A DNA stretch of 64,000 nucleotides from a virus, in IMG/VR virus record IMGVR_UViG_3300009378_000007, positions 1-64,000 of that record, one strand, 5' to 3'. The translations under genes and the position numbers were made by a program. This document shows, piece after piece, positions 1-44,107 of this stretch (position 1 is the first letter of the stretch; every line of letters starts with the position of its first letter). The notes under the pieces are model-generated. The model was not told the DNA's origin, ran no database searches, and was given only the letters and a program-made list of their open reading frames with translations.

Positions 1-1421
1 CTATTGACCAATTGTATGATCGTAGGGGCCTACGTAAAGACCAAGGGTACACCACAGATTTGTTGGTCAAGGGGCGTTCTGGAGAGTTTGCAAAAGCCAT
101 TCATTGGTGGTACCGGGGTAAATCACCTGTTGTCAAAACCACTACACAATCCGGGTATAATGTCACAACAACAAAGAAGCATGAGGTACTGACTTTGGGA
201 CAAGACCTACGTCCGGAATGGGTTCCTGTGAAGCGCCTTCAAAAATCCGATTACCTGTGCATTGACACACAGGGGCAGGAGGCGACGGAACCCCTGAGGC
301 TGAACCTCACAGATTATCCGGTTAAAGGAGGTTGGTCCCAAAAAGCTGCAACCAAACCGACAGAAATGACACCCGATTTGGCCTATGTGTTAGGACTTAT
401 CGTGTCTGAGGGCACACTTAAGAAGAAAAACGTGGTTTCGATCACGAATTCGAATCTGGGAGTCCTTGACCGATACCAAGAGGCTTTTACCTCTGTTTTT
501 GGTGTGGTTCCTGAACGGACCTTAAGTAGCCCGAAAGGTCGTAGGTATAACATTAAGGGTGTGACGGGTACCTCCAATTCGGATGTTTACAAGATGTCCT
601 TCGAGGAGGTAAAGGTCGTACATTGGTTGAAGGAACTCGGGGTCGTACAGAAACGGAAATCCGAGGTGAACAATCCGTCTGCCTACAGAGTAGTACCTTG
701 GTCCATCCTTCAGGCCCCGACGGAATGCCGATTGGCTTTCATTGCCGCTTTTCTTGACGGTGATGGCTCTGTTGCCCAAAGGAAAGATACTGTGGCTCTG
801 CGTTTTTGCAGTAGTAGTGGCCAATTGTTGGACCAAATGCAGATACTATTGGCGGACCTCGGGGTACCCAGCTTTCGGATGACTGACCACCCCAAATGGT
901 TAAGTGTTATTCGGTATTTTGGGAACAAATTTTACAGGCGTCTACGTCCTTGGTTGGCCCATACTGAAAAAAACCAGTACGATGTACGTGAAGCGGATTT
1001 ACAAGGACGTACATTCGGGGTACCTATACCACCTATCCGAAACTTCTTGGCATCCCGTTGGATCCGCAGAGAAACCAATGTTGGTGAGTGGTTTGAAAAT
1101 GCGGAAGGCCAACCAGTTTTAATTGAAGGCTTTGGTCACCGCACCTCAAAATACTTGGGATCAACGGTTGGGAAGGGTAAACATCGAGATGGAGTCCTGC
1201 CCTACTCTAACTTTGAGAAAGGTCTATACTCCGATTTATTGGATATCCTGGAACAAATTGATCCTGTAGTTGTCAGACGATTGGTGCGCTTGTCTGAACT
1301 CCAGTACTTCTTTGACCCGGTACAGGAGGTAAAACCAGCTGGAACTTCCCATTTGTATGACCTGACCATGGAACACAAAGTGGCACCTGCCTTTGTGTCT
1401 AACGGTATCGTGGTACATAAC
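1..1421 (+). mobile_element. LAGLIDADG (DOD) intein inside the portal-like gene
   Basis: Block B is visible as VTTTKKHEVL (TxxH) near base 170. Two LAGLIDADG-type helices follow: LAYVLGLIVSEG near 380 and LAFIAAFLDGDG near 735. The C-terminal splice junction is VVHN then Ser (bases 1410-1424), a standard His-Asn/Ser end. The catalytic N-terminal Cys or Ser lies just before the window. Both acidic endonuclease residues (E in SEG, D in GDG) are kept, so the homing endonuclease could be active. Confidence 0.9.
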
Positions 1422-2183
1422 AGTGGAGACATGTCGTATGGAACGATGGAAGTAGCGTTGTCAGTGTTTATTGAACACATGCGGGCGTTCCGTGACATGA
1501 CCACCCACAGGGTGTTTTACAACAAGCTGTTTCCATTGATCTCGGTTATCAATGGCTTTGAGAAGGAAGAGGATGCTCCAAAGCCTAACCCTTACTATCG
1601 ACACAGGACACCTGAGGAGTCGGCGGCCCGTCGGACAACTCCTATGTTGACAACCGACATGGTACAGTGGGATACGGCTGATACCAGTAAACTGGTTATT
1701 CCAACCATGCACTGGCATAAAGCCCTTCGGCCTGAGGCGGACACCGAGTACCTGACAGTATTGGAGACCCTGACCGAGAAGGGAGTGCCGGTCCCTCTGC
1801 GGATGTGGGCTGCTGCCGGTGGTCTATCTGTTGACAGCCTGATGAGTGACCTTGAGGAAGACGCGGAGATTAAGGACCGAATCAAGGAACTTAAAGGTGG
1901 AGGTGATGACGAGGACGACGATGATTTTTCCTTCTCTGGTCTGCGGTCTATCAAACGCCAGACCCTTACGGACAGGGATTTCGGAGACCTCGCAGAGTTG
2001 TCTACGACCGACAAAGCTGGCAAGAAACGGCACGTGTTCAACCAAACACGTGCCAACAAAGCCATCAATGATAAGATAATCAAGGCGGTCCGTGAGATTG
2101 CCAAGGAACCCAACAACAAACGCCGACAACGAATGGCACAGCGTTTTATTGGTCGTCGGAATCCCTATGGAGACGTGTCATGA
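1..2183 (+). CDS. Probable portal vertex protein, 5' partial, with in-frame intein
   Basis: The gene enters from outside the window, since the frame is open to base 3. The first 1421 bases are intein. The host protein resumes at Ser (codon 1422-1424) and runs about 253 residues, containing SGDMSYGTMEVALS, a LFPLISVINGF segment, PVPLRMWAAAGG and an acidic stretch (about DDEDDDD) near 1903-1925. It overlaps the ATG of a prohead protease by 4 bases, which matches the portal-protease order of T4-like head operons (gp20-gp21). The portal call rests on this order and on general resemblance to portal C-termini, so it is an inference. If spliced, the intein leaves an intact portal that forms the dodecameric DNA-entry ring. 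Alternative: another head-vertex or minor capsid protein. Confidence 0.7.
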   Translation, partial: IDQLYDRRGLRKDQGYTTDLLVKGRSGEFAKAIHWWYRGKSPVVKTTTQSGYNVTTTKKHEVLTLGQDLRPEWVPVKRLQKSDYLCIDTQGQEATEPLRLNLTDYPVKGGWSQKAATKPTEMTPDLAYVLGLIVSEGTLKKKNVVSITNSNLGVLDRYQEAFTSVFGVVPERTLSSPKGRRYNIKGVTGTSNSDVYKMSFEEVKVVHWLKELGVVQKRKSEVNNPSAYRVVPWSILQAPTECRLAFIAAFLDGDGSVAQRKDTVALRFCSSSGQLLDQMQILLADLGVPSFRMTDHPKWLSVIRYFGNKFYRRLRPWLAHTEKNQYDVREADLQGRTFGVPIPPIRNFLASRWIRRETNVGEWFENAEGQPVLIEGFGHRTSKYLGSTVGKGKHRDGVLPYSNFEKGLYSDLLDILEQIDPVVVRRLVRLSELQYFFDPVQEVKPAGTSHLYDLTMEHKVAPAFVSNGIVVHNSGDMSYGTMEVALSVFIEHMRAFRDMTTHRVFYNKLFPLISVINGFEKEEDAPKPNPYYRHRTPEESAARRTTPMLTTDMVQWDTADTSKLVIPTMHWHKALRPEADTEYLTVLETLTEKGVPVPLRMWAAAGGLSVDSLMSDLEEDAEIKDRIKELKGGGDDEDDDDFSFSGLRSIKRQTLTDRDFGDLAELSTTDKAGKKRHVFNQTRANKAINDKIIKAVREIAKEPNNKRRQRMAQRFIGRRNPYGDVS

Positions 2184-2974
2184 CACAATTTTTGCCAGGT
2201 CGGCGTCCTGTGAACAAGACAGCCAACTATGATCTCGGTGGAAGAGCCCTTTGCAACCCTCTGGAGGTCCACCAGGCGGTCAAACGAAAAGATGTGACCT
2301 TAGCCTCGGGCAGGGTCGTAATGCGGAATGAGGTCCTTGGAATGGAAAGCGGAGATACCTCGCTAGACATCAGCCAATGGTTACCTTTTGCCAGCAAAAC
2401 CTACGAGATCTCTGACAACCTCGAGGACTTTGTGATGGTGCCGGTTATTACGATTCCAACAGACTTACCAAACAGGAATGGTGTGGCGTTCCCGCTGGCA
2501 TCAATGGTAGCGTTCAACCCTGAAGCAGGGATGCAGGCGTTCAAGACGTTTAAAGGGAAACCATGTTTTGTTGAACATAAGAACACTGTTCTGTCAAAAG
2601 CCCGTGGTGTTATCGCCGATACCTACCTCCGTAAGATGCCGGAGTTCGGTCAAGGAAAGGTCTGGAAGTTCCTGGAGCTCTTGGCGTTTGACCGCACTAA
2701 GGATCCTGACCTGGTGAAGGATATCCTTAGTGGGCAGATGAACAGTTATTCCATGGGTGCCTACGTAGACCAGTACAGTTGTTCCTACTGTGGGAAGGAA
2801 CTGGGGCATTGTAGTCATATATCTGCCAACCGGCCTGTTGATTTCTACAAGAAAGGTAACAGGCTGGTGTATCGGCAGGTACATGGGGTCCAAGGTTTTG
2901 AAACCAGTGCTGTAAGTTCTCCCGCGTTTTACAGTGCTATCCAGGAGGACTCTAGCTTACTTTCAGTGGAGTAA
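2180..2974 (+). CDS. Prohead core protease (T4 gp21-like serine protease)
   Basis: 264 residues. The pattern fits the herpesvirus assemblin-like prohead proteases: a catalytic His in KPCFVEHKNT (about residue 133), then GVIADTYLRK, and a Ser in GQMNSYSMGAYVDQ (about residue 190). A CxxC...CxH cluster follows (SCSYCGKELGHCSH, about residues 201-214), which could bind zinc and is not a standard part of the family. The protein would cleave scaffold and head proteins during capsid maturation. It overlaps the portal-like gene by 4 bases, consistent with translational coupling. Scaffold and major capsid genes do not follow directly, so the head operon is rearranged or continues elsewhere. Confidence 0.8.
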   Translation: MTQFLPGRRPVNKTANYDLGGRALCNPLEVHQAVKRKDVTLASGRVVMRNEVLGMESGDTSLDISQWLPFASKTYEISDNLEDFVMVPVITIPTDLPNRNGVAFPLASMVAFNPEAGMQAFKTFKGKPCFVEHKNTVLSKARGVIADTYLRKMPEFGQGKVWKFLELLAFDRTKDPDLVKDILSGQMNSYSMGAYVDQYSCSYCGKELGHCSHISANRPVDFYKKGNRLVYRQVHGVQGFETSAVSSPAFYSAIQEDSSLLSVE

Positions 2975-3095
2975 CTTCAGAAGGTAGTTGTATAAGGGCT
3001 GCAAGTGTGGTGTTATCCGCCCTATCGAGTTTCCGGGACTCTGGGGTTGGGGATTCGGACTGACCGCTCGCCCCACCACCAAGTTTTCATGATCG

Positions 3096-3119
3096 CGTAG
3101 GTAGGCCTGCCTACGTTTT
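3096..3119 (+). terminator. Probable rho-independent terminator after the protease gene
   Basis: An eight-pair stem, CGTAGGTA / TGCCTACG (one G-T pair), closes a GGCC loop and is followed by TTTTA. The stretch from 2975 to this hairpin holds no convincing gene. A second GC-rich fold (GGTTGGGG with CCCCACC, 3037-3080) precedes it. Confidence 0.6.
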
Positions 3120-3159
3120 ATTGTGGGAACAGATCGCGGAGTATACCAAAGAGGATACC

Positions 3160-3339
3160 ATGATTAAAGAACTTGCCACACGAACGCCTAGTGTCTGTGC
3201 CCAGAGTGATAAGCAAAGGGAATACCAGGCGTTTTTCAACAAAAAATTGGATGAGTGGGATGCCTCCAGTCCCGCGGATTTGAGTGTCGAGGAACGGAAG
3301 AAGTTTTTCAATGAAATTGAGAAGGAGTGGGATGGTTAA
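3160..3339 (+). CDS. Small conserved-looking phage protein
   Basis: 59 residues, starting at the ATG preceded by AAAGAGG, which I prefer to an upstream TTG. The protein is charged, with an EYQAFFNKKLDEW segment and a C-terminal RKKFFNEIEKEW helix. This layout recalls small proteins encoded beside T4-like head genes, but I cannot name a function. It lies just after the terminator and begins the next + strand group. Confidence 0.6.
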   Translation: MIKELATRTPSVCAQSDKQREYQAFFNKKLDEWDASSPADLSVEERKKFFNEIEKEWDG

Positions 3340-3402
3340 GTGTGGTTGGGCGCGAGCATGAGGAGGTGAGTGTCATGTACTGAAAACCGAGGAGTGACTC
3401 CA

Positions 3403-3714
3403 ATGCAACTCTATATTAACGATATTGCCAACGCCCTCTCTAAATGTAGTTCCATCGAGGCCAACGCCCATCTATTGAGGTTCCTCTCACGGGCACTAAT
3501 GCGGGCCGTCCAAAAAACAAATGCAGTATACATATTCGACCTTTGTATCTGGGATACTGATGAACCCCATCGTCAAATAAGGTACCTGGAGACGTCGAAA
3601 GGTGGGCCTACCCCTACCAAGAAAACTAGGCGGTACTCTACCGAGGTGGAATACTTTGGCATCCATAAGGAGTGCGGCGCATGTACGTTCCAATTGGAGT
3701 TTAACTATGACTAA
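3403..3714 (+). CDS. Hypothetical protein
   Basis: 103 residues. The ATG at 3403 has GAGGAG eight bases upstream. A GTG at 3370 with AGGAGG only three bases upstream is a weaker option. The C-terminal half has CGACTF and several aromatic residues. No family recognised. It overlaps the next gene by 8 bases. Confidence 0.6.
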   Translation: MQLYINDIANALSKCSSIEANAHLLRFLSRALMRAVQKTNAVYIFDLCIWDTDEPHRQIRYLETSKGGPTPTKKTRRYSTEVEYFGIHKECGACTFQLEFNYD

Positions 3715-4030
3715 CCCGTTTAACGTAGAGAACGTCGAGTACCTTGTGAAGGTCAACATTGACCTCATTGGGTACTTCTTTGATCGATTGCGTATCGTAC
3801 CGCGTGTTGTAATCTTTGGATACATGTGGCTGGTGTACGATACCATTACGTGGGCAAAAGGGTTGCCCGATATCAGCACACAGCAAGCTGGGGTAGTGGC
3901 GGCTGTTGTTGGTTTCGCCGCTCCTTTATTTGCCTTTTATGTCAACGCCAGCACAATGTTGAAGGGATTCACAAAGAGATCCGGCTCGGCAGATAAACAA
4001 AATGAAAAACCTGGAGGACCCACCGCGTAA
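3707..4030 (+). CDS. Small membrane protein, holin-like
   Basis: 107 residues from the ATG at 3707, with GGAG seven bases upstream. Two hydrophobic segments are visible: VVIFGYMWLVYDTITWA (about residues 29-45) and AGVVAAVVGFAAPLFAFYVN (about 57-76), followed by a basic polar tail. The arrangement fits a small two-helix membrane protein such as a holin or lysis accessory, but no catalytic or family-specific motif supports this. It is followed by another one-helix protein and a coiled-coil membrane protein, a cluster reminiscent of lysis or spanin genes. Confidence 0.6.
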   Translation: MTNPFNVENVEYLVKVNIDLIGYFFDRLRIVPRVVIFGYMWLVYDTITWAKGLPDISTQQAGVVAAVVGFAAPLFAFYVNASTMLKGFTKRSGSADKQNEKPGGPTA

Positions 4031-4142
4031 TTGGAGGGACCGCTTGGTTGATGCGGCCCTAGTGCTTTTTCAATTTTTGATTCTGGCCGTAGTGCTCGGA
4101 GTGTCTGTCGCTGTCATAGATTTAACGGCCAGAATATTTTAA
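4002..4142 (+). CDS. Very small single-helix membrane protein
   Basis: 46 residues, overlapping the end of the preceding gene. A polar N-terminus (LEDPPRNWRDRL) leads into one membrane helix, ALVLFQFLILAVVLGVSVAV. No clear Shine-Dalgarno, so translation probably relies on coupling. The position between two membrane proteins suggests a lysis-related role, unproven. Confidence 0.5.
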   Translation: MKNLEDPPRNWRDRLVDAALVLFQFLILAVVLGVSVAVIDLTARIF

Positions 4143-4192
4143 ATACCGGCTATTTATGTCCCTTTCTAGGGGGTAAAGAGGAGGATAGTACC

Positions 4193-4591
4193 GTGGGTGA
4201 CAACGATGTGGATGTGGAAGAGCTGGTGGATAAAGAGGTGCGTGAGAAACTGGACAGGAAGTTTGGCTGGCAAAAGGTAAGTGCTGTTTTATCTGTGATT
4301 ATACCCTTGGTAGGTGGGGTTTGGTGGGTTGCCAATAACATCGTGACCAAAGAAGCCTTGGCAGAAGAGCGTCAGGTTATCGAGGCAGGTGTGGCATCCC
4401 GTATTCTCGCGGTCGAGCGAGAACTCCTGGCGTATAAAATTGAGAGTGTGACTGGTTATATTGAGTATTTGGAAGACCGTGTACAGAGAGGTGAGGCTAA
4501 TGACAATGACCACAGATTACTCAAGTACAACCAAAGGAGGCTCGACCGTCTCCTACGCCAGGAACAGGTGTTGGGGGGTCGTGATAGATGA
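4193..4591 (+). CDS. Membrane-anchored coiled-coil protein
   Basis: 132 residues from a GTG with AGGAGGA upstream. An acidic N-terminus is followed by one hydrophobic segment (VSAVLSVIIPLVGGVWWVANN, about residues 29-49) and a long charged helical stretch to the C-terminus. Inner-membrane spanins (Rz-like) have this general build, but the helix is not at the extreme N-terminus, so the call is tentative. It is followed immediately (TGA ATG) by the GGDEF gene. Confidence 0.5.
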   Translation: MGDNDVDVEELVDKEVREKLDRKFGWQKVSAVLSVIIPLVGGVWWVANNIVTKEALAEERQVIEAGVASRILAVERELLAYKIESVTGYIEYLEDRVQRGEANDNDHRLLKYNQRRLDRLLRQEQVLGGRDR

Positions 4592-5950
4592 ATGTTAACA
4601 GAAAAACCAGCCGTACAAGATTGTGGGGTGACACCATCCGCCGCTTGGTTTATGCAACAGGAGCCTAATATTTCTAACCAACAAAAATTTAACTCGGTGA
4701 TGGTACTTAACCGTCTGTTGTTGACCTCGCTTGACCAGATGCCTTTGAAATCCCAGTTACAAGAGTTTTTAAAGATCATCCTGGACATACCTTGGTTTAA
4801 ACTGGTGCCAAAAGGAGGAGTGTTCCTGGTAGACGAACAGTCAGGTCACCTACACTTGATGGCACAGCAAGGGTTCCTGGAAGAGCAGAAGGTACAATGC
4901 GCGGTTATAAAACTAGGGGATTGTCTGTGTGGTAGAGTACTGCAATCACAGAGCCTCCTCTTCGCCGATAAAGTGGACCACCAACATGACTTTACATTCG
5001 AGGGCATGGTTCCTCATGGGCATTATGTAGTGCCCATCATGGATGCTGATAAGCTCTTGGGAGTACTTAACCTATATCTGGAAGAAGGGCATCCTGTGAA
5101 TAAGGAAGAACAGGATTTCCTTGGCGTGGTAGCTTCGACAGTCGCGTGTTTAATCAAACGGAGGTATTTGGAACACCAGCTAAAACTCCAGGTAGAGAGG
5201 GACAAACTGACAGGGTTACCCAACCGCAGCCTATTTTTGGACCGTTTGTCACAGTCTATGTATGCCGCCAAGAGGCACAGAGAACAGGTTGTGTTAATGT
5301 TTATTGACCTGGATCGTTTCAAGTGGGTGAATGACACTCTCGGACACGACGCAGGGGATGACTTGCTGCGGGAGGTAGCCATCCGTATCAAGAGTTGCGT
5401 GCGGCAGTCGGATACTGTAGCCCGTCTTGGAGGGGATGAATTCACTACTATCCTGACAGGTATCACCCATCCCTGTTATGTTGAGTTGGTTGCCCGTAAG
5501 ATTCTGGAACAGTTAACGTTACCCTTCCAGCTGTGTGGGCAGAACATTTTCATCTCCTGTTCAATCGGTATCTCAGTCTACCCAGACGACGCAGAACTCC
5601 AAGAAGACCTGCTCAAGAGTGCCGACAGTGCAATGTATGAATCCAAGAATGCTGGACGTGGTACCTTCCACTTTTATCATCCAGAAATGCAAGAGAAAGC
5701 TTGCCGTCGTGTTGAAATAGAAGCCTCCGTCCGTGAAGGTCTGGAAAAAGGTGAGTTTTATCTGGTATACCAACCTAAAATAAACCTGGGGGCCAACAAG
5801 GTAGAAGCAGTCGAAGCCCTTGTCCGTTGGGAACATAAAGGTGAGTTGAAACGCCCAGATGATTTTATTCCTGTTGCGGGGGTTTTGCCTCGGCATTGGC
5901 CTCAGCCGGAGCGTCAGTGGCAGGCTGGCCCTCTGGAGGGGCTTCCTTAA
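4592..5950 (+). CDS. GAF-GGDEF protein with truncated EAL domain (probable diguanylate cyclase)
   Basis: 452 residues. Residues about 40-190 look like a GAF sensor. Residues 200-365 are a GGDEF domain with an intact GGDEF active site (280-284) and a product-inhibition I-site RxxD (RQSD, 271-274) exactly five residues upstream, plus FIDLDRFKWVND. An EAL domain begins near 375 and contains the EAL signature (408-410, EALVRW) but ends at DDFIPVA (423-429), before most phosphodiesterase catalytic residues. The last 23 residues are unrelated sequence read antisense to the next gene. Expected activity is c-di-GMP synthesis from two GTP with feedback control, and phosphodiesterase activity is almost certainly lost. 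Sensor ligand unknown. Probably acquired from a bacterium. Confidence 0.88.
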   Translation: MLTEKPAVQDCGVTPSAAWFMQQEPNISNQQKFNSVMVLNRLLLTSLDQMPLKSQLQEFLKIILDIPWFKLVPKGGVFLVDEQSGHLHLMAQQGFLEEQKVQCAVIKLGDCLCGRVLQSQSLLFADKVDHQHDFTFEGMVPHGHYVVPIMDADKLLGVLNLYLEEGHPVNKEEQDFLGVVASTVACLIKRRYLEHQLKLQVERDKLTGLPNRSLFLDRLSQSMYAAKRHREQVVLMFIDLDRFKWVNDTLGHDAGDDLLREVAIRIKSCVRQSDTVARLGGDEFTTILTGITHPCYVELVARKILEQLTLPFQLCGQNIFISCSIGISVYPDDAELQEDLLKSADSAMYESKNAGRGTFHFYHPEMQEKACRRVEIEASVREGLEKGEFYLVYQPKINLGANKVEAVEALVRWEHKGELKRPDDFIPVAGVLPRHWPQPERQWQAGPLEGLP

Positions 5951-37215: not shown

Positions 37216-37223
37216 TATTTACA
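37216..37223 (-). promoter_or_regulatory. TGTAAATA element (putative late promoter)
   Basis: Perfect copy spanning the sbcC-like stop codon, about 30 bases before the next start. Confidence 0.65.
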
Positions 37224-39687
37224 TAACAGGGATAAACCGCATCTTTTGGCCTTTCTTTTGGGCCACAAACTCCCGGGCCTGTGGGTACTCCTCGTCAGTT
37301 GGTGTAACCACAATGATGTGAGGGATCACCCTGTTGAGGGCGGGTAAGAATTCTTGGATAAACAGGTCCCGTCCACCTTCATCCATGTTAGCCGTCATCT
37401 CATCAAGCACGAGAATGTTGGTACGCTTGTTGGCCGGAATTAGGGGCAGGACACCAAGCAAAAGCAGCATATTAAACGCCCGCCCTTCCGCACCACTGAG
37501 GGACCTCACATCAGCCGTCACCGTTTTACTACCTTCTACCCTATGAAACAACACGTCAAACTTGTTCGGTCCTATCTGGAACTCGAACTCCGTTGGTTCA
37601 TGGAACAGGTGTCGAGCATAGACGTTCATATTCTGTTGTACTGTTTCTGCCAACTGTTGGACCACCAGGGACTTTAGGCCCTTAGGGGAATACGCATCAG
37701 ACAGCATCTTGAGAACAGGTAGGTCCTTGAGACGATCCTTCAATTTTTGGCCCTCCGCCTCCAGGTCCGCCAGCCTCTTGGTATCCTGTTCATACTGCTC
37801 TATCTTGACCTGTAAACGTGGGGTTCTCCGTTGAAGGTCCATCAATCGGGTTTTCTGTTGGTCAACCTTTTGTTCCAGATGCTGCCGTTTAGCCCGCAAT
37901 TTGGACACGTCTCGTGTACCGAACTGGTCCCACAGGGCCACCAACTTGGGTACCACGTAAACCAAAGACTCCAGCTGGCCGTACATCCAGCGTAGGTCCC
38001 TTAATTCGTTCTCGATTTTAGAGGGATCCGACGCTTGTTCACCCGTTCTCTTGGGTACACGTAATGCCTGTTCCTGGTTGTCAAGGTCCCACCATGCCCT
38101 CCATTTGTCGAACTCTCTGGAGCGGTCCTTTCGTTTATCTTTCTGACTGCATAGTTGATTATAATGGTCTCTCAGTTCCTGCTGTTGTTCCTTGAGGTGG
38201 TCATAGGTAATAACCTCTGGTACCTCTTGTAGCTTCTGTACCAGAGATTCCCTACGTTTACGCTTGGCACGTAACTGGCTCAAACGTTTGCGAAGGGTAT
38301 CATGGATGGATTCCGCTTGAACCTTGGACAAGTCCTGTTGACACACCGTACACTGGCCACCCTCAGCGTGTTCCATGTGTTGGGACATTAAGTGAAGGGA
38401 ACGTTTAAAGTCGCGTTCCTGCCCCCGTAGGTCCCCTAGGACCCCAGATAACTTCTGTAGGGTCCCTTGGACCCCTAACTCCTCTAGGTCCAGCCCTAGG
38501 TCCTTACACGGACCTGTTACTCGACCCAACGCCTCCCCGTATTGCTTGCGTTCTCTGCGGGCGGATTTAATCCGGCGACCTACCTTCTCATACTGGGCTC
38601 GCGTTTCTCGTAACTTGGATCGGAGGTCAGATCGTTGTTGCCGGTCCTGTTCGATCTGTTGTTGCCCATCTTTTGGAGGCTTTGATAAGCCCTTTTTCTG
38701 GCCCGTAATATGCTTGAGCTGGTCTCTGTAGGCTTTCGTAGATCGGCGCCAATGCCTCCACTCTTGGTGTGCTTCATGCTTTTGTTCTAACCCGGTTATC
38801 TTGGCCCCCAGAGAATCCCGGAACTCCAATAACTCTGAGGCGGTCATGTCAAATATAGTGATTGGGCGGTCTATTGAGGCAAGGTATTCAGCAGTCAAAC
38901 CAGATAATTTATCCAGTGCCTCTGTTTGGTGGGACACTGCCAGCCGGAGGTCTGCGATAGCCTTGTGCCTATGGTCCTGTCCTTTGACCAAGGACTTCAG
39001 TTCCTTTTGGTACCTGTCATGCCGGACCCTCAGTTGGGTAATATCAATATCCTGTACCCTACTGGTTAGCTCAACCACGTCTTTTTGTCGGCTTTCATAC
39101 ACCGCTTGTTCCGCCTGGAGTTTCCGGATTTGCTTCTGTACCCTACCCTTCAACTGGTCAAAATCATCTAAAACAAACAGGTCACTGAAGAAGGACATAC
39201 GCTGAGCAACTGTACCCATGTGGAGGACAAACGGTCTGCGACTGTCAAGGTAGACCAGGGACCAGAACTGCTCCTCATTAATAGGGACGATCTGCTGGAC
39301 CATTTCCTCGGCTATAGTCGTTGTGCGTGGTTCTAGGTTGTCTTTGTTTTTGTGTATCCGGTACTTAAGGGACGCTCCTCTCTGACCTTTCTCCAGCTCA
39401 TAGTTGTCACCGTCGATGGTCAAATCGAGTTGGATCCGGCTACCTTTACGGTGTATGTCTTTCTTGGCCCTGGATTTGTTTTGCCAGATGATGGGGGAAC
39501 TGGAATACAGCAGGTTGGGGATGGTTGAAACGAGGAGGGATTTACCACTACCGTTGGACTTCTTGAGTCCGGCTGGGACATTAAAGTTTTGGCCTCGGAT
39601 TACCGTAAGACCACGATGGTCTAGGTCAAGGGAGGCTTCCCGGTAATAAACAATATTGGCCAAACGCAAACGAGTGAACTGTATCAA
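37219..39687 (-). CDS. SbcC/Rad50-like recombination endonuclease subunit (T4 gp46-like)
   Basis: 822 residues, TTG start with GGGAG upstream. Walker A KKSNGSGKSLL (about 42-52), two long coiled coils flanking a zinc-hook CTVCQQDL (about 446-453), signature SLSGAEGRAFNMLLLLG and Walker B TNILVLDEMTANMDE. With the SbcD-like subunit at 43085-44107 it would form the exonuclease that resects DNA ends for recombination-dependent replication. Its partner is not adjacent but lies 3.4 kb upstream. Confidence 0.92.
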   Translation of the reverse strand: MIQFTRLRLANIVYYREASLDLDHRGLTVIRGQNFNVPAGLKKSNGSGKSLLVSTIPNLLYSSSPIIWQNKSRAKKDIHRKGSRIQLDLTIDGDNYELEKGQRGASLKYRIHKNKDNLEPRTTTIAEEMVQQIVPINEEQFWSLVYLDSRRPFVLHMGTVAQRMSFFSDLFVLDDFDQLKGRVQKQIRKLQAEQAVYESRQKDVVELTSRVQDIDITQLRVRHDRYQKELKSLVKGQDHRHKAIADLRLAVSHQTEALDKLSGLTAEYLASIDRPITIFDMTASELLEFRDSLGAKITGLEQKHEAHQEWRHWRRSTKAYRDQLKHITGQKKGLSKPPKDGQQQIEQDRQQRSDLRSKLRETRAQYEKVGRRIKSARRERKQYGEALGRVTGPCKDLGLDLEELGVQGTLQKLSGVLGDLRGQERDFKRSLHLMSQHMEHAEGGQCTVCQQDLSKVQAESIHDTLRKRLSQLRAKRKRRESLVQKLQEVPEVITYDHLKEQQQELRDHYNQLCSQKDKRKDRSREFDKWRAWWDLDNQEQALRVPKRTGEQASDPSKIENELRDLRWMYGQLESLVYVVPKLVALWDQFGTRDVSKLRAKRQHLEQKVDQQKTRLMDLQRRTPRLQVKIEQYEQDTKRLADLEAEGQKLKDRLKDLPVLKMLSDAYSPKGLKSLVVQQLAETVQQNMNVYARHLFHEPTEFEFQIGPNKFDVLFHRVEGSKTVTADVRSLSGAEGRAFNMLLLLGVLPLIPANKRTNILVLDEMTANMDEGGRDLFIQEFLPALNRVIPHIIVVTPTDEEYPQAREFVAQKKGQKMRFIPVM

Positions 39688-39833: not shown

Positions 39834-40112
39834 CTATCTAGTTGGAGTCCCGTCAGGATTGGTTGGTTTGTTAGGTACCAGGTCTTCAGGTTGTGCCCAA
39901 CGCAGTACCGTCTCCTTTGCACAATCATAATGGGTGCCATGGAGAACGCAACCGTTCAACACCTTCCGGGGGAACAGGTAATGCCCCTTCCAGGAGAAGT
40001 TGACAACAGGGTCGGAAGCCCAACCAAATACCATACCGGCGATGAATATGGCGATGGGTATCAGGGATTTGAGCTCCATCAGGGTACGGATAACGTGGCG
40101 TCTGTCTTTCAT
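39834..40112 (-). CDS. Single-helix membrane protein
   Basis: 92 residues. Helix LIPIAIFIAGMVFGWASD (about 17-34), then a soluble tail with two Cys (NGCVLHGTHYDCAKE), possibly a disulfide outside the cytoplasm. GAGGA upstream. Related in layout to the next gene (both have FGW/GWGS after the helix). Confidence 0.6.
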   Translation of the reverse strand: MKDRRHVIRTLMELKSLIPIAIFIAGMVFGWASDPVVNFSWKGHYLFPRKVLNGCVLHGTHYDCAKETVLRWAQPEDLVPNKPTNPDGTPTR

Positions 40113-40369
40113 GGCTTTTCCTCGATTACATGCGGGTCACCCTGTTTACCATGACACTCAAGGCACTCTTCATGTTCAAGTTGTAGTTGTCGGTGCATTT
40201 TTACTAGAGGTACGTGAGTGTCTTTATGCAGGACATTAGGAGACTTGTGACCAAAGACATGTTCGTGGGAACCCCAGCCAAGAATAAGACCGCACAGGAA
40301 CACAATTACTGGGAACACGTATAGTAATTCCGCTTGCATGTAACGGAAGCTCTTTAACATCCATTTCAT
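40109..40369 (-). CDS. Membrane-anchored protein with CxxCH motif
   Basis: 86 residues. Helix LLYVFPVIVFLCGLILGWGS (about 15-34) and a His-rich tail ending in EHEECLECHGKQGDP, which has the CxxCH pattern that binds c-type haem. Positive charges precede the helix, so the tail is probably periplasmic, where haem is attached. A zinc site is the alternative. AAGGAG upstream. Confidence 0.6.
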   Translation of the reverse strand: MKWMLKSFRYMQAELLYVFPVIVFLCGLILGWGSHEHVFGHKSPNVLHKDTHVPLVKMHRQLQLEHEECLECHGKQGDPHVIEEKP

Positions 40370-41287
40370 TTACTTACTCCTTGAACGTTGTCGGTGGATA
40401 CCTGACATACGCCCAAGCCGAGCAACCAGCATTGACCTTTCAGGTGTTACAAAGGTCATCATCTCAGCCCGAGCATCCAATATTAAATTATGGACACGTA
40501 GTAATAGACCGAGGTTCCTCTTGATGTCGAACTCCCGCTTTAACATCGCCCTGTGCAGGTTCTTCCGGGATACACTGGCAAACACCGCTGGGTGTTGACC
40601 CCTGCTATCAAAATGGAGCGTGGCCCTGTCCACCATGTATTGGTTGAGGTCCATTAATTTTTGCATGAGGGGCACGAACTCCGTAGTCTTGGCTATCTCT
40701 CTGCACACTATGCGGGTACTGTTCGTGTACAGACCTACCAAGATGGCGCTTGCAATGTTATCCAAAACACTGTCAACCGTTTGGATGGCTTGGTCTTCGA
40801 TAATCTTGGACAGAGCTTCAGGTTCAACATCTGTGCCGAGCCCTGCAATGAAGGAACTGGTATTTTCCAAGATACCAATGGCGTCACGCATCTGACCACC
40901 TGACAGATTCGCCATGGCCTTAAAGTGAGGTTCCTCGAGGCCAGTAACACGTTCTCGTTTGGCAATCTGTTGGAGGCGTCGAATAATGGACTGGTGCCCT
41001 AAAGGTTTCACAGGTAAATGGTGACAACGCCCCTTGATGGCAGCCGCCAACTTCTCTGGGTTTGTGGTGCCAAGAATCCATAGGACGTGACTTGGAGGAT
41101 CCTCCAGCGGTTTCAAGAGGGCTTGCTCTGCCTGAGGCGTTAACTGGTGGCAATTTGATACCAGGACGCTATTTGTGGAGCCTTTTGGTCGAATGAAAAA
41201 ATTATGGTTCTTAGCGACACCGATATCATATACGCGTTGACACGGATTACCCAACCGCGTGACTTTTTTGACTTTAACAGTTTTCAT
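40370..41287 (-). CDS. dnaX: Clamp loader DnaX, C-terminal half, with C-terminal split intein
   Basis: 305 residues. Residues 1-45 are a C-intein: VYDIGVAKNHNFFI (block F) and VLVSN (block G, terminal Asn). The extein starts at Cys46 with CHQLTPQAEQALLKPLEDPP, the Walker B/switch region of clamp-loader ATPases, followed by ILGTTNPEKL (sensor 1) and KGRCHHLPVKPL (near the arginine finger). The C-terminal 140 residues form the collar-type domain. It must be joined in trans to the 41514-42194 product. GAGAGGA precedes the ATG. Confidence 0.92.
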   Translation of the reverse strand: MKTVKVKKVTRLGNPCQRVYDIGVAKNHNFFIRPKGSTNSVLVSNCHQLTPQAEQALLKPLEDPPSHVLWILGTTNPEKLAAAIKGRCHHLPVKPLGHQSIIRRLQQIAKRERVTGLEEPHFKAMANLSGGQMRDAIGILENTSSFIAGLGTDVEPEALSKIIEDQAIQTVDSVLDNIASAILVGLYTNSTRIVCREIAKTTEFVPLMQKLMDLNQYMVDRATLHFDSRGQHPAVFASVSRKNLHRAMLKREFDIKRNLGLLLRVHNLILDARAEMMTFVTPERSMLVARLGRMSGIHRQRSRSK

Positions 41288-41312
41288 AAATTCCTCTCAC
41301 TAATTTAGATAA

Positions 41313-41546
41313 GTTACATCGGAGAATCATTACCACGGGTCCCCTTTCAAATTCAAGCCTGACCATAAGTGCCACCCATTTAACCGCAAAGTAACTGCCA
41401 AAACACTATACCGCAAAACTATGGACAGGTTATTACGGCTAGTCTTGGCAGGTTACAATGTGGTATACATTTGGGAAACCGATTTTAAACAAGGCCTTAC
41501 TTACAGCGGGAGTCTAATCGCGAACCAAAAGTTCCTCCCCCTCTAA
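41313..41546 (+). pseudogene. VSR-like homing endonuclease C-terminal remnant (antisense)
   Basis: The + strand is open from 41313 to 41546 without a convincing start. It encodes SENHYHGSPFKFKPDHK, CHPFNRKVTAKTLYRKT and LVLAGYNVVYIWETDFKQG. The HP...T...LY..T..R...L..GY.VV.IWE.DF pattern is the end of VSR-like nucleases associated with fractured, split-intein genes. The N-terminal half is missing, so it is probably dead. Confidence 0.7.
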
Positions 41547-42194
41547 AAGCTCTTGGGCTTCTACCATACGTCCACGCGTGACAGACCACCACTTATGTGT
41601 ATCCGTGCAGTCTTGATGGGATCCATCCTCAAGATCGACACGTACCATTTGATCGGGCTTGGCTTCCTTTGGTGTCCTGCTAATTACAGGTTGGGCCTCT
41701 ATCCTACCTACCTTTGTATCATAGGATAACACCTCTGGGTATCTATCAGGATTTTGACAAATATCCTCGATGGTGGCCCACTGATCAGGGGCCACCTCTA
41801 CCTCCGCGTCTGGAGGGAAACATTCGTCAAGGATAAAGACACGGAGGCGATGGGTGGACATAAATCTACTGCGGGCGATTAAGTTACGAACGTCCTCGAT
41901 CTTCCGGCTGTCTGCCATGTTGAACTCTTCGATATCAGGATGGCGGCCTTCCTGTAAGGCGACGCAGGAATCACATTTACCACACCCTGTCATCTCTGTA
42001 CAGTTCAGGTATTTGGCGATCAACCGACCGATGGTGGTTTTACCACATCCACTTGGACCTGTCAGAAGGTAGGCGCTGGGAATCTCACCCTTTTCAATGT
42101 TACCCCGAAACGTGGTAACAATAGACTTTTGACCTGCGACTTGGCTTAACTTTTGGGGCCTGTACTTCTGGGCCCATCCTTTTACTGGTGGCAT
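41514..42194 (-). CDS. dnaX: Clamp loader DnaX, N-terminal half, with N-terminal split intein
   Basis: 226 residues. Extein 1-124: WAQKYRPQKLSQVAGQ, Walker A GPSGCGKTT (46-54), a four-Cys zinc site (C65, C71, C74, C77) and VFILDE ending at 124. Residues 125-226 are an N-intein starting CFPPDAEVEV, with block B LEDGSHQDCTDTHKWW (TxxH). Splicing would join LDE to CHQL, restoring the Walker B DExH box, and give a 384-residue DnaX. The split falls inside the ATPase active site, so splicing should be needed for function. AGGAGCCGA before the ATG. Confidence 0.93.
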   Translation of the reverse strand: MPPVKGWAQKYRPQKLSQVAGQKSIVTTFRGNIEKGEIPSAYLLTGPSGCGKTTIGRLIAKYLNCTEMTGCGKCDSCVALQEGRHPDIEEFNMADSRKIEDVRNLIARSRFMSTHRLRVFILDECFPPDAEVEVAPDQWATIEDICQNPDRYPEVLSYDTKVGRIEAQPVISRTPKEAKPDQMVRVDLEDGSHQDCTDTHKWWSVTRGRMVEAQELLEGEELLVRD

Positions 42195-42230
42195 ATCTCG
42201 GCTCCTACGGCTTTGTGTTCATATACCTTT

Positions 42231-42238
42231 AATTTACA
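42231..42238 (-). promoter_or_regulatory. TGTAAATT element (variant of the late-promoter motif)
   Basis: One mismatch to TGTAAATA. Covers the stop region of the 42234 gene, 37 bases before the dnaX N-half start. Confidence 0.5.
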
Positions 42239-43088
42239 GTTTCCAGAATTGTCCCCAGTTAACTGTGGTACCTTCATGACCAAAGGTGACGTTCACTTTT
42301 TCAGGATTCCTCATCCGCTCTATATCCCCTTGGATGCGTTCCATCTGTTTTTGGAACGTTTGGTACTTGGCTATAAGTTGGGCACGTGTGTTTTCAATGA
42401 CGTGTGCTCTCCCTACAGGGGTTTGCCACAACTTCCAGTTGTTGTGCCCCTCGGAATTCTCTAGGGTATTTATCTCCGCCCGCAATTCTTGGATACGGCC
42501 TAGTAAGATGCCGTGCCTTTTTCGGAGTCTGGCCACCAACCTGTCATAGGCTGGACGGTCCGGAAGGTTCACCTCTGTACCTTTTTTCTTACCCCGCCCT
42601 AGTTTTACCAGCCCATCCCATATATCCAACAGAGCTTTGACGTTGTTGTTCTCGTAGGCCTCTGACGCCATCTTAAAAAATTCGTGGAGCCAGGTTTTAC
42701 CCGGCGTTTTATCAGGGTGGCACAACAGGCTAATGCGGCGGAACAACCTTTTGGCTTCTGAGCTTGGTTTAACCTTTTGCTTTTCCTGCCGCTTTTCAAA
42801 ATTGGTTTCGAAGTTTGGCCCCCGTGGTTTGTTAGGTTCCTCTTGGTTGTGTCGCTCCTGTAATTTACGATGTTGGTCCAAGAGATCACGGCAGGCGGTT
42901 TCAAGGTGAGTTATCATCTCATCCTCTTCTGACAGCTCTGCTTGCAACCAACCATCAAGATCGTCCATCATCCCTTGAAACTCGGCTCTCTTGGTCTCCA
43001 GTTGCTGGCACTCAATCTCAAGTACCTCTACCTCATCTTGGAGTTCCATGTGTTGGACAGTAAATCCAACGGCAGTATTGGCAGTCAT
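42234..43088 (-). CDS. J-domain (DnaJ-like) coiled-coil protein
   Basis: 284 residues. Residues about 110-160 (EAKRLFRRISLLCHPDKTPG, then FFKMASEAYENNNVKALLDI) form a J domain with an intact HPD, needed to stimulate Hsp70 ATPase. Coiled coils flank it on both sides. A recruit for host DnaK in replication or assembly is plausible. AAAGGA precedes the ATG, which overlaps the upstream stop. Confidence 0.8.
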   Translation of the reverse strand: MTANTAVGFTVQHMELQDEVEVLEIECQQLETKRAEFQGMMDDLDGWLQAELSEEDEMITHLETACRDLLDQHRKLQERHNQEEPNKPRGPNFETNFEKRQEKQKVKPSSEAKRLFRRISLLCHPDKTPGKTWLHEFFKMASEAYENNNVKALLDIWDGLVKLGRGKKKGTEVNLPDRPAYDRLVARLRKRHGILLGRIQELRAEINTLENSEGHNNWKLWQTPVGRAHVIENTRAQLIAKYQTFQKQMERIQGDIERMRNPEKVNVTFGHEGTTVNWGQFWKL

Positions 43089-44107
43089 GCCGCGTCCTTT
43101 AAGAAGCTTTCTATTAATTGTTGTCCCCGACGAATTTGGGACCGTGTAGCTCCCTTATCCTTCAGGAAAACATCAAGCCCTGTCAGGAGATCCCATTGCG
43201 GACCATCTACGGCCGTATCCTCAAGGGATAAGAGTTCTTGCCGATGTTTGTACCCAACAACGTTGTAGACGTTTGGATGGGCTGTCAGGAAGCCAGGAGG
43301 TAATACTACACCACTCTTCAACCATAGCTTGTATCGGTGTAATGGATTGGACTCAATTTTATCTAGGTCTGCCTCTACCTCGATGGACAAGTTAACTAGG
43401 CGAAACGCTGGTTCGTTCTGGATCCACGTTATGTCAGCGTCAATCTGGTTATTACGTGTATCCAGAATAAAGTGCATCCATCCCTTGGGTAAGGGTTCCC
43501 CAAAGTTCATCTGGTAGAGCGTGCCGGGGTACCACACATTACCCGTCTTTTGCTTGAGATGGAGGTGCCCCATTAACCAGATGTCTTGGTCTCTCGTAGG
43601 ACGCCAACCCTTGGTAATCCGTTGGCCATTATCTCGGCGGGCACCTGTTGTTTCTAAGTGCCCAATATTAACCGTGGGTCCCAAGGAAAAAGGAGGACAG
43701 TCATAGGGAAAAGGAAGAAAGTTAATGACCGTTCCATCCAACTGGATACGGTTAGGACGGTCATAAATGTAGATGGTACGAAATTTCTCCATCCTGCATA
43801 ATTGTACAAGTGGTTGTAGGCTGTGGAGGTCTTTGTTCCGAACGTCATGGTTACCCAGGATAACATGGATGTCTAACGTTCCATCGTACTCGTGGAGGAC
43901 CTCAAGGAACGCCATTTGGGCTTCGTATGAAAGCCTAGTATTGTGGGAAATGTCCCCACCAAGGATAACAAAGTTGAGACCGAGTTCAACCGCATACCTC
44001 AGTGGTTTGCGGAACTCTGCCATTTGTAGGTCCAAATGATTGTCAGGGAACAACTTACGGAGGCCATCCAGATGGAGGTCTCCTATGAACACACCTTCTA
44101 CCGACAT
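43085..44107 (-). CDS. SbcD/Mre11-like nuclease subunit (T4 gp47-like)
   Basis: 340 residues. Calcineurin-like phosphoesterase motifs: GDLHLDG (9-15), LGGDISHN (48-55), ILGNHDVRN (about 82-90) and WLMGHLHLKQ (about 172-181), each with metal ligands. Expected partner of the SbcC-like ATPase. ATAGGAG upstream. Confidence 0.92.
   Translation of the reverse strand: MSVEGVFIGDLHLDGLRKLFPDNHLDLQMAEFRKPLRYAVELGLNFVILGGDISHNTRLSYEAQMAFLEVLHEYDGTLDIHVILGNHDVRNKDLHSLQPLVQLCRMEKFRTIYIYDRPNRIQLDGTVINFLPFPYDCPPFSLGPTVNIGHLETTGARRDNGQRITKGWRPTRDQDIWLMGHLHLKQKTGNVWYPGTLYQMNFGEPLPKGWMHFILDTRNNQIDADITWIQNEPAFRLVNLSIEVEADLDKIESNPLHRYKLWLKSGVVLPPGFLTAHPNVYNVVGYKHRQELLSLEDTAVDGPQWDLLTGLDVFLKDKGATRSQIRRGQQLIESFLKDAA

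Follow-up and report, generated by a model that had tools for sequence, protein, structure and literature searches.

Fractured genes with split inteins were reportedly described by Dassa et al. in 2009 as replication genes that are broken, with DNA of a Vsr-like family endonuclease lying between the halves. Two further systems come close to the one considered here. The Ssp DnaX intein is a natural intein of the Synechocystis DnaX, from which split forms have been engineered (PMC3443213), and it has both Cys1 and Cys+1 (PMC11766414); the jumbo phage MIJ3 has a DNA polymerase B with a putative split intein around an endonuclease open reading frame (ORF) (PMC6892783). Here we analyse a viral locus, positions 40370-42194 of a 64,000-nucleotide stretch (hereafter, the window; positions 1 to 64,000 of IMG/VR virus record IMGVR_UViG_3300009378_000007), which an earlier note, made from the sequence alone, had read as a dnaX clamp loader gene fractured by a split intein. 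The locus encodes a DnaX-like clamp loader in two pieces whose junction is intact, and both its intein and the nuclease-derived DNA between the pieces are kin to a module in a helicase gene of Vibrio phage vB_VcorM_GR11A (hereafter, GR11A).

A clamp loader gene broken at Walker B

The two halves are successive pieces of one clamp loader. The N-half matches PF13177 with 60 bits (residues 21-124) and TIGR02397 with 123 bits (residues 7-125), and the C-half matches the same models with 43.6 bits (residues 36-96) and 91.9 bits (residues 43-216), the N-half covering the first part of each model and the C-half the next. The PF13177 cut-off is passed, both halves are assigned to the clamp loader family phrog_5846 in PHROGs, and residues 8-125 of the N-half align with the gamma subunit structure 1njf (E 4e-23). 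Matches to lid domains are weak and below cut-off. We keep the label "DnaX-like" because the halves, like the intact DnaX of the related Vibrio phage GR7B (213.7 bits), score less than the curated TIGR02397 cut-off of 250.

When joined, the exteins form a protein of 384 aa, the size that the earlier note had approximated, and this protein aligns without a gap at the junction with the intact homologs GR7B_00195 (37% identical) and GR11A_00163 (33% identical). According to this alignment, the gene has a single break, at which no extein residues are lost. Walker B is an uninterrupted LDECHML in both homologs; in the window, the break lies between the E and the C of DECH (written DE/CH below, the slash marking a break). 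The split had been placed inside Walker B: it is indeed at this motif, but the Asp and Glu both remain in the N-half and the break comes just after them. Both window halves are open and have the same P-loop, Walker B and GRC residues as the intact homologs. The ATPase would presumably be disabled until trans-splicing occurs, as already proposed in the earlier note.

Two further IMG/VR records (168,900 and 40,857 bases) carry the same split arrangement; over 12,678 bases, the two agree fully with each other and have 9 differences from the window, all of which lie outside 40370-42194. An intact dnaX elsewhere in the genome, which the earlier note had named as evidence against its reading, was sought in the window record and these two near-identical records (G000, G001 and G002; the longest is 168.9 kb). 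PF13177 matched only the two halves in all three, as did TIGR02397 in the two near-identical ones. Among relatives of DnaX, the 78 non-window loci kept of the 113 found include none with an intein in DnaX as judged by models, in a search whose patterns favoured an unbroken LDECH; one of them (L051) has a C-intein-like match about 2 kb away.

The halves of a split intein

At the break, a 102-residue N-intein and a 45-residue C-intein that ends in VSN and is followed by CHQL are found where they had been predicted. The N-half protein has a DnaX-type start followed by the P-loop and Walker B (..RVFILDE), continues with CFPPDAEV.. and ends in LEGEELLVRD, and the C-half protein starts with MKTVKVKKV.. 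and passes through ..NSVLVSN into CHQLTPQ (CHQLTPQAEQALLKPLEDPP..). For profile searches, the two parts were fused into an intein of 147 aa plus Cys+1. The fused intein scores above both NCBIfam cut-offs (TIGR01445, 25.6 with a cut-off of 24.5; TIGR01443, 26.3 with a cut-off of 15.6) and above that of Pfam PT-HINT (34.5; cut-off, 27.7); the unjoined genome DNA reaches 22.9 with TIGR01445, under the cut-off. Solved inteins are matched as well, namely, 4kl5 (E 7.9e-8) and gp41-1, 6riz (E 3e-4). Cys1, the motifs that we take to be block B (CTDTH) and block F (VYDIGVAKNHNFF), the terminal Asn and Cys+1 are all present, and the splice motifs align with those of 18 other inteins. The class 1 hallmarks are spread over separate ORFs, with Cys1 and TxxH on the N-half, and block F and the terminal Asn followed by Cys on the C-half.

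Contiguous inteins occupy the identical DnaX site in the huge phage LR745208 (167 aa) and in an IMG/VR locus (L038; 405 aa). Both end in VSN and would have to splice for their DnaX to be whole. The opposition in net charge between the N-intein and the C-intein of the window (Table 1) is the widest among the 20 inteins compared. A net charge of -4 or lower in the N-intein combined with a positive C-intein is found in 4 of 10 split inteins (those of the window, GR11A, Salmonella phage S16 and LR756500); to allow the comparison, 10 contiguous inteins were divided at 100 and 44 residues, and none has this pattern. From these features, we infer that the two halves are spliced in trans.

The remnant of an antisense endonuclease

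Between the halves, the opposite strand carries an open frame of 77 codons, the last 33 bp of which overlap the end of the N-half ORF. The earlier note had recognized here the end of a VSR-like nuclease; the kinship is borne out, and the frame is longer than the listed ORF of 41 aa that begins at the sole listed start inside it. In a tblastn search of 50,697 phage records, the only match to the remnant at E <= 0.01 was GR11A_00005 (40% over 62 aa, E 3e-9), on which grounds a chance open frame was rejected.

A scan of viral contigs with three members of the nuclease family yielded 28 loci, two of which are near-identical copies of the window locus. By models, 22 of the 26 non-window loci have no intein match, two have only a distant match, and two, L132 (IMG/VR 3300022872_000001; 192-kb contig; 2839-4826) and L146 (IMG/VR 3300018414_000006; 119-kb contig; 1576-4796), have the nuclease between intein halves. 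In both of these, the broken gene is dnaX, split at a second site (..ATD/CLLKPLEEP and ..SAQ/CLLKPLEEP, respectively), and the antisense nucleases comprise 140 and 566 aa. The remnant starts just before HGxP and, with HGxP .. GYxV..WExD, has the motifs expected of the C-terminal half. What it lacks are the upstream columns for Asp and Glu (D65 and E76 in the L132 protein), which the 18 other rows of the alignment all fill and which we take, from the EDxHD family, to hold the catalytic residues.

The structural model of the L132 nuclease (pLDDT 77.4) aligns with Vsr (1cw0; Z 8.2, 3.5 Å over 108 residues) and I-Bth0305I (3r3p; Z 7.5, 4.0 Å over 93 residues), with other proteins tying or ranking higher; in a Foldseek search, Vsr came at ranks 2 and 3 (E 0.03). 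The remnant thus labelled would be a relative of the EDxHD/Vsr-like homing endonucleases and, probably, the C-terminal end of one, judging from the motif, the model of the L132 relative and a published account of such nucleases in phages (PMC12350094).

Family databases add little. The 77 codons match no family in Pfam or NCBIfam, only phrog_22677 (function unknown; E 9.3e-5) in PHROGs and only two chance-level sequences in the PDB, and Pfam gives no convincing family for the nucleases of GR11A, L132 and L146. There are no further copies of the nuclease in G000-G002. Two scans of bacterial genome contigs for carriers, with the N-intein and the nuclease alignments, produced no relative, a weak negative given that the patterns were narrow.

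The nuclease of the window is probably dead, having lost its catalytic half. The DNA between the halves is endonuclease-derived and includes no whole, potentially active endonuclease gene, and because the catalytic half is absent, we call the arrangement a decayed derivative of the fractured-gene type.

A sister module in a helicase gene

Among those compared, the closest relative of both the intein and the remnant resides in an unrelated gene. In GR11A (MT366761.1, 4704-8883), the nuclease GR11A_00005 (271 aa, with the catalytic motif kept, VDGF..IFEFHGD) lies antisense between GR11A_00006, the C-terminal part of which consists of ..VVIVDE and a 104-aa N-intein, and GR11A_00004, which opens with a C-intein ending in VHN and followed by CHKIP. 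The exteins match ResIII and Helicase_C, that is, an SF2-type helicase is split at DE/CH, as is the window dnaX; the genes of the module are annotated as hypothetical proteins and helicase.

The window intein is 42% identical to the GR11A helicase intein, the highest value among 18, followed by a helicase intein of Yersinia phage fHe-Yen9-02 (40%) and the second split intein of the near twin G001 (35%); the contiguous inteins at the same DnaX site are 29% and 26% identical. In the intein tree, in which end branches are long and only one of the 16 inner branches is starred, that branch joins the window and GR11A (96/91). The three inteins at the first DnaX site (the window and the two contiguous ones) do not form a clade in the best tree, but such a clade is not rejected by the approximately unbiased (AU) test (p 0.197). 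For a grouping of the window intein with the two split inteins at the second DnaX site, the AU p is 0.022.

The nuclease tree, built from 24 rows (two pairs identical) with 5 unparsed loci left out, recovers the window, GR11A, L132 and L146 as a clade (85/95, not starred) and the window with GR11A (88/72). These four nucleases share a C-terminal SG-x-L that is lacking in the other 20 of the 24 rows, and this shared tail may in part be among the columns kept for the tree. In all four, the nuclease and the N-half overlap 3' to 3', by 33, 35, 11 and 17 bp in the window, GR11A, L132 and L146, respectively.

The two genes are in reciprocal states: DnaX is whole in GR7B and GR11A and split in the window, whereas the helicase is split in GR11A and whole in G001. 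The G001 helicase homolog (75496-76197) is a single open frame, 41% identical to the extein of the GR11A C-half, with DEVH as Walker B; the site is likewise unbroken in G003 and G004 (DEVH) and in GR7B (DEIH). Uninterrupted DnaX has the +1 Cys and these four unbroken helicases do not, as might be expected if the Cys codon had travelled with the module; but the intein-bearing helicases of other phages also read DE/CH, so that transfer may have run in either direction. At the DNA level, TGCCAC follows the break at both the window site and the GR11A site, and of the 12 bases ahead of the break the two sites agree at 8, by a count made by eye.

As a separate observation, the helicase of GR7B (L018/L154) and that of GR11A (L017) each have a contiguous intein in the P-loop (GK/C..VHN/T).

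Layout and neighbourhood of the locus

The features of the locus are listed in Table 1.

Table 1. Features of the fractured dnaX locus (window positions)
Feature	Position	Strand	Details
N-half ORF	41514-42194	minus	226 aa: 124-aa extein and 102-aa N-intein
C-half ORF	40370-41287	minus	305 aa: 45-aa C-intein and 260-aa extein
N-extein	41823..42194	minus	First 124 aa of the clamp loader; P-loop GPSGCGKTT, CGKCDSC motif, Walker B ..FILDE
N-intein	41517..41822	minus	102 aa; Cys1, block B TDTH; acidic, net charge -12; stop codon 41514-41516
C-intein	41153..41287	minus	45 aa; own ATG, block F VYDIGVAKNHNFF, VLVSN at the end; basic, net charge +8
C-extein	40373..41152	minus	Last 260 aa of the clamp loader; first residues CHQLTPQAEQALLKPLEDPP; stop 40370-40372
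Antisense remnant	41313..41546	plus	Putative C-terminal 77 codons of an EDxHD/Vsr-like homing endonuclease; open from 41313 to a stop at 41546
Shine-Dalgarno-like GAGAGG	41293..41298	minus	Ahead of the C-half ATG; read from the sequence
Shine-Dalgarno-like AGGAG	42202..42206	minus	Ahead of the N-half ATG; read from the sequence

The surrounding gene order is that of GR7B, where a phosphoesterase lies upstream of the uninterrupted DnaX and a large ATPase-like protein downstream. The product of 43085-44107 is 41% identical to the GR7B phosphoesterase, and that of 37219-39687 is 26% identical, over nearly the full length, to the large protein of GR7B and 28% to its GR11A counterpart. Extra ORFs are present within this order in the window. 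One of these, between the phosphoesterase and dnaX (42234-43088, minus strand), is weakly DnaJ-like (24.7 bits; cut-off, 27.8); at that place, GR7B and GR11A lack a gene. Immediately following the dnaX C-half, 40109-40369 (minus strand) encodes a small protein that has a single hydrophobic stretch and, as CLECH, a haem-c-like CxxCH motif; it matched no Pfam family.

Other fractured replication genes

Several other replication genes are interrupted in a comparable manner. In the huge phage LR756500 (L032, 3716-6461), a gp44-like clamp loader is split after Walker B (ILDE/C..THN/CDG), with a sense-strand ORF, judged by eye to be a nuclease, between the halves. A second fractured gene of the near twin G001 (L024, 87125-90346) is split at ..IAGEF/C..VHN/CLDENMK around an antisense DUF7487 ORF; its halves score 35.7 (N-half) and 19.6 (C-half) against the PolA-type 3'-5' exonuclease domain (cut-off, 23.6). 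A family A DNA polymerase in L171 (2666-6217) is split by an intein with a gap of 174 bases and no nuclease. Considered together, GR11A with a whole nuclease, the window with a truncated one and L171 with none suggest, across different genes, a decay series from a mobile fracture to a fixed split gene.

Two observations stand apart. In Salmonella phage S16 (L030, 2338-5064), uvsW, annotated as two genes, has intein halves where it is broken at DE/CH, and gp114.1, which separates them, gives NUMOD3 and TnsA-like matches that are weak and do not reach the cut-off. Within the window itself, 12-2183 (plus strand), which runs past the start of the record, encodes the later part of a contiguous LAGLIDADG intein (PF14528, PF14890) that ends in VVHN/SGDMSYG; the counterpart position in G001 is 68699-68938.

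Evaluation of the alternative explanations

With a probability of about 0.9, we favour the explanation that a tailed phage related to GR7B and GR11A produces the DnaX-like clamp loader in the form of two proteins, which a split intein rejoins, following the entry of a module and the decay of its nuclease. The acidic 102-aa N-intein and the basic 45-aa C-intein would bind each other to form one HINT domain, and the class 1 route of splicing, through Cys1, TxxH, the terminal Asn and Cys+1, would join ..RVFILDE to CHQLTPQ.. in the 384-aa ATPase. The break would have originated when a module of a split intein and an antisense EDxHD nuclease entered the Walker B codons; the nuclease would later have lost its catalytic half, leaving the split fixed and the mobility gone.

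Several points weigh against this explanation. The fused intein falls below the Pfam Intein_splicing cut-off (31.3; cut-off, 35.8), and the penultimate residue of the C-intein is Ser, not the usual (non-obligatory) His. Charge opposition is not universal, being missing from 6 of the 10 split inteins. In a promoter and terminator scan of the locus, promoter-like sites were no commoner than in shuffles. The absence of a second dnaX is not final because no completeness is given for the three records. The Ser in place of His before the terminal Asn would also suit two chains that work as a clamp loader without being spliced, with the intein halves decaying or serving solely as a dimerisation clip. 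We consider this improbable given that Cys1, TxxH, Asn and Cys+1 are retained and that the intein halves are opposed in charge; both contiguous inteins of the same site, which would have to splice for a whole DnaX, also have the Ser.

It is even less probable that dnaX is a dying pseudogene in a phage that relies on the host clamp loader. Although the intervening nuclease has already been reduced to a remnant, the halves themselves are open, retain the P-loop, Walker B and GRC residues and have translation starts, and the identical arrangement recurs in two other records. Those records are metagenomic, as could be held in favour of an assembly or sequencing artefact; however, the locus is identical in the three records against the 9 differences elsewhere in 12,678 bases, and misassembly is not expected to yield precise intein halves at the break, so that an artefact is hardly credible. 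A self-splicing RNA intron was rejected as the cause of the break on the grounds that the splice motifs are at the protein level and the halves, with a start apiece, are closed ORFs; no Rfam search was made.

Beyond the rejoined clamp loader, we tentatively propose, at somewhat less than even odds, that the split intein and the antisense EDxHD nuclease constitute a single mobile module that enters unrelated ATPases via the DE-C-H codons of Walker B, as in the window dnaX and the GR11A helicase, with a related lineage having hit the second site of dnaX. The window copy would then be a stranded landing, clamp loader assembly now depending on trans-splicing.

Implications and comparison with known systems

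If the halves are spliced as proposed, a DnaX-like clamp loader joins the genes that are kept in two pieces, and sliding-clamp loading would wait on protein splicing. In the window dnaX and the GR11A helicase, two genes that are not related to each other, sister split-intein/nuclease modules occupy one and the same protein motif, which makes the movement of split inteins between unrelated ATPases directly testable. The strongly charge-opposed intein halves are candidates for a protein-ligation tool.

The fractured genes of 2009 reportedly resemble the window in the split-intein break and the endonuclease DNA; in the window, the host is a DnaX-like clamp loader and the nuclease is truncated. 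In the literature passages covered on inteins in dnaX, clamp loaders and phages, no naturally split DnaX is mentioned. We regard the DnaX-like clamp loader, provisionally, as a new host gene for the known arrangement, here in a decayed state. The Ssp DnaX intein shares with the window the DnaX host, Cys1 and Cys+1, whereas its split forms are engineered, and MIJ3 likewise has an interrupted jumbo-phage replication gene, albeit with PolB as the host and an HNH nuclease. The LR756500 clamp loader is, like that of the window, split after Walker B (..VVILDE/C), but it has a gp44-type lid (Gp44_lid 46.4; cut-off, 27), a sense-strand nuclease of another kind and an intein that is only 25% identical. 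L132 and L146 share the intein-split dnaX and an antisense EDxHD-like nuclease that groups with the remnant in the tree; they differ in the insertion point and in nucleases that keep the catalytic motif. The GR11A module has a split intein at DE/CH that is sister to that of the window, together with an antisense nuclease, and is distinct in the SF2-type helicase host, the whole nuclease and the penultimate His.
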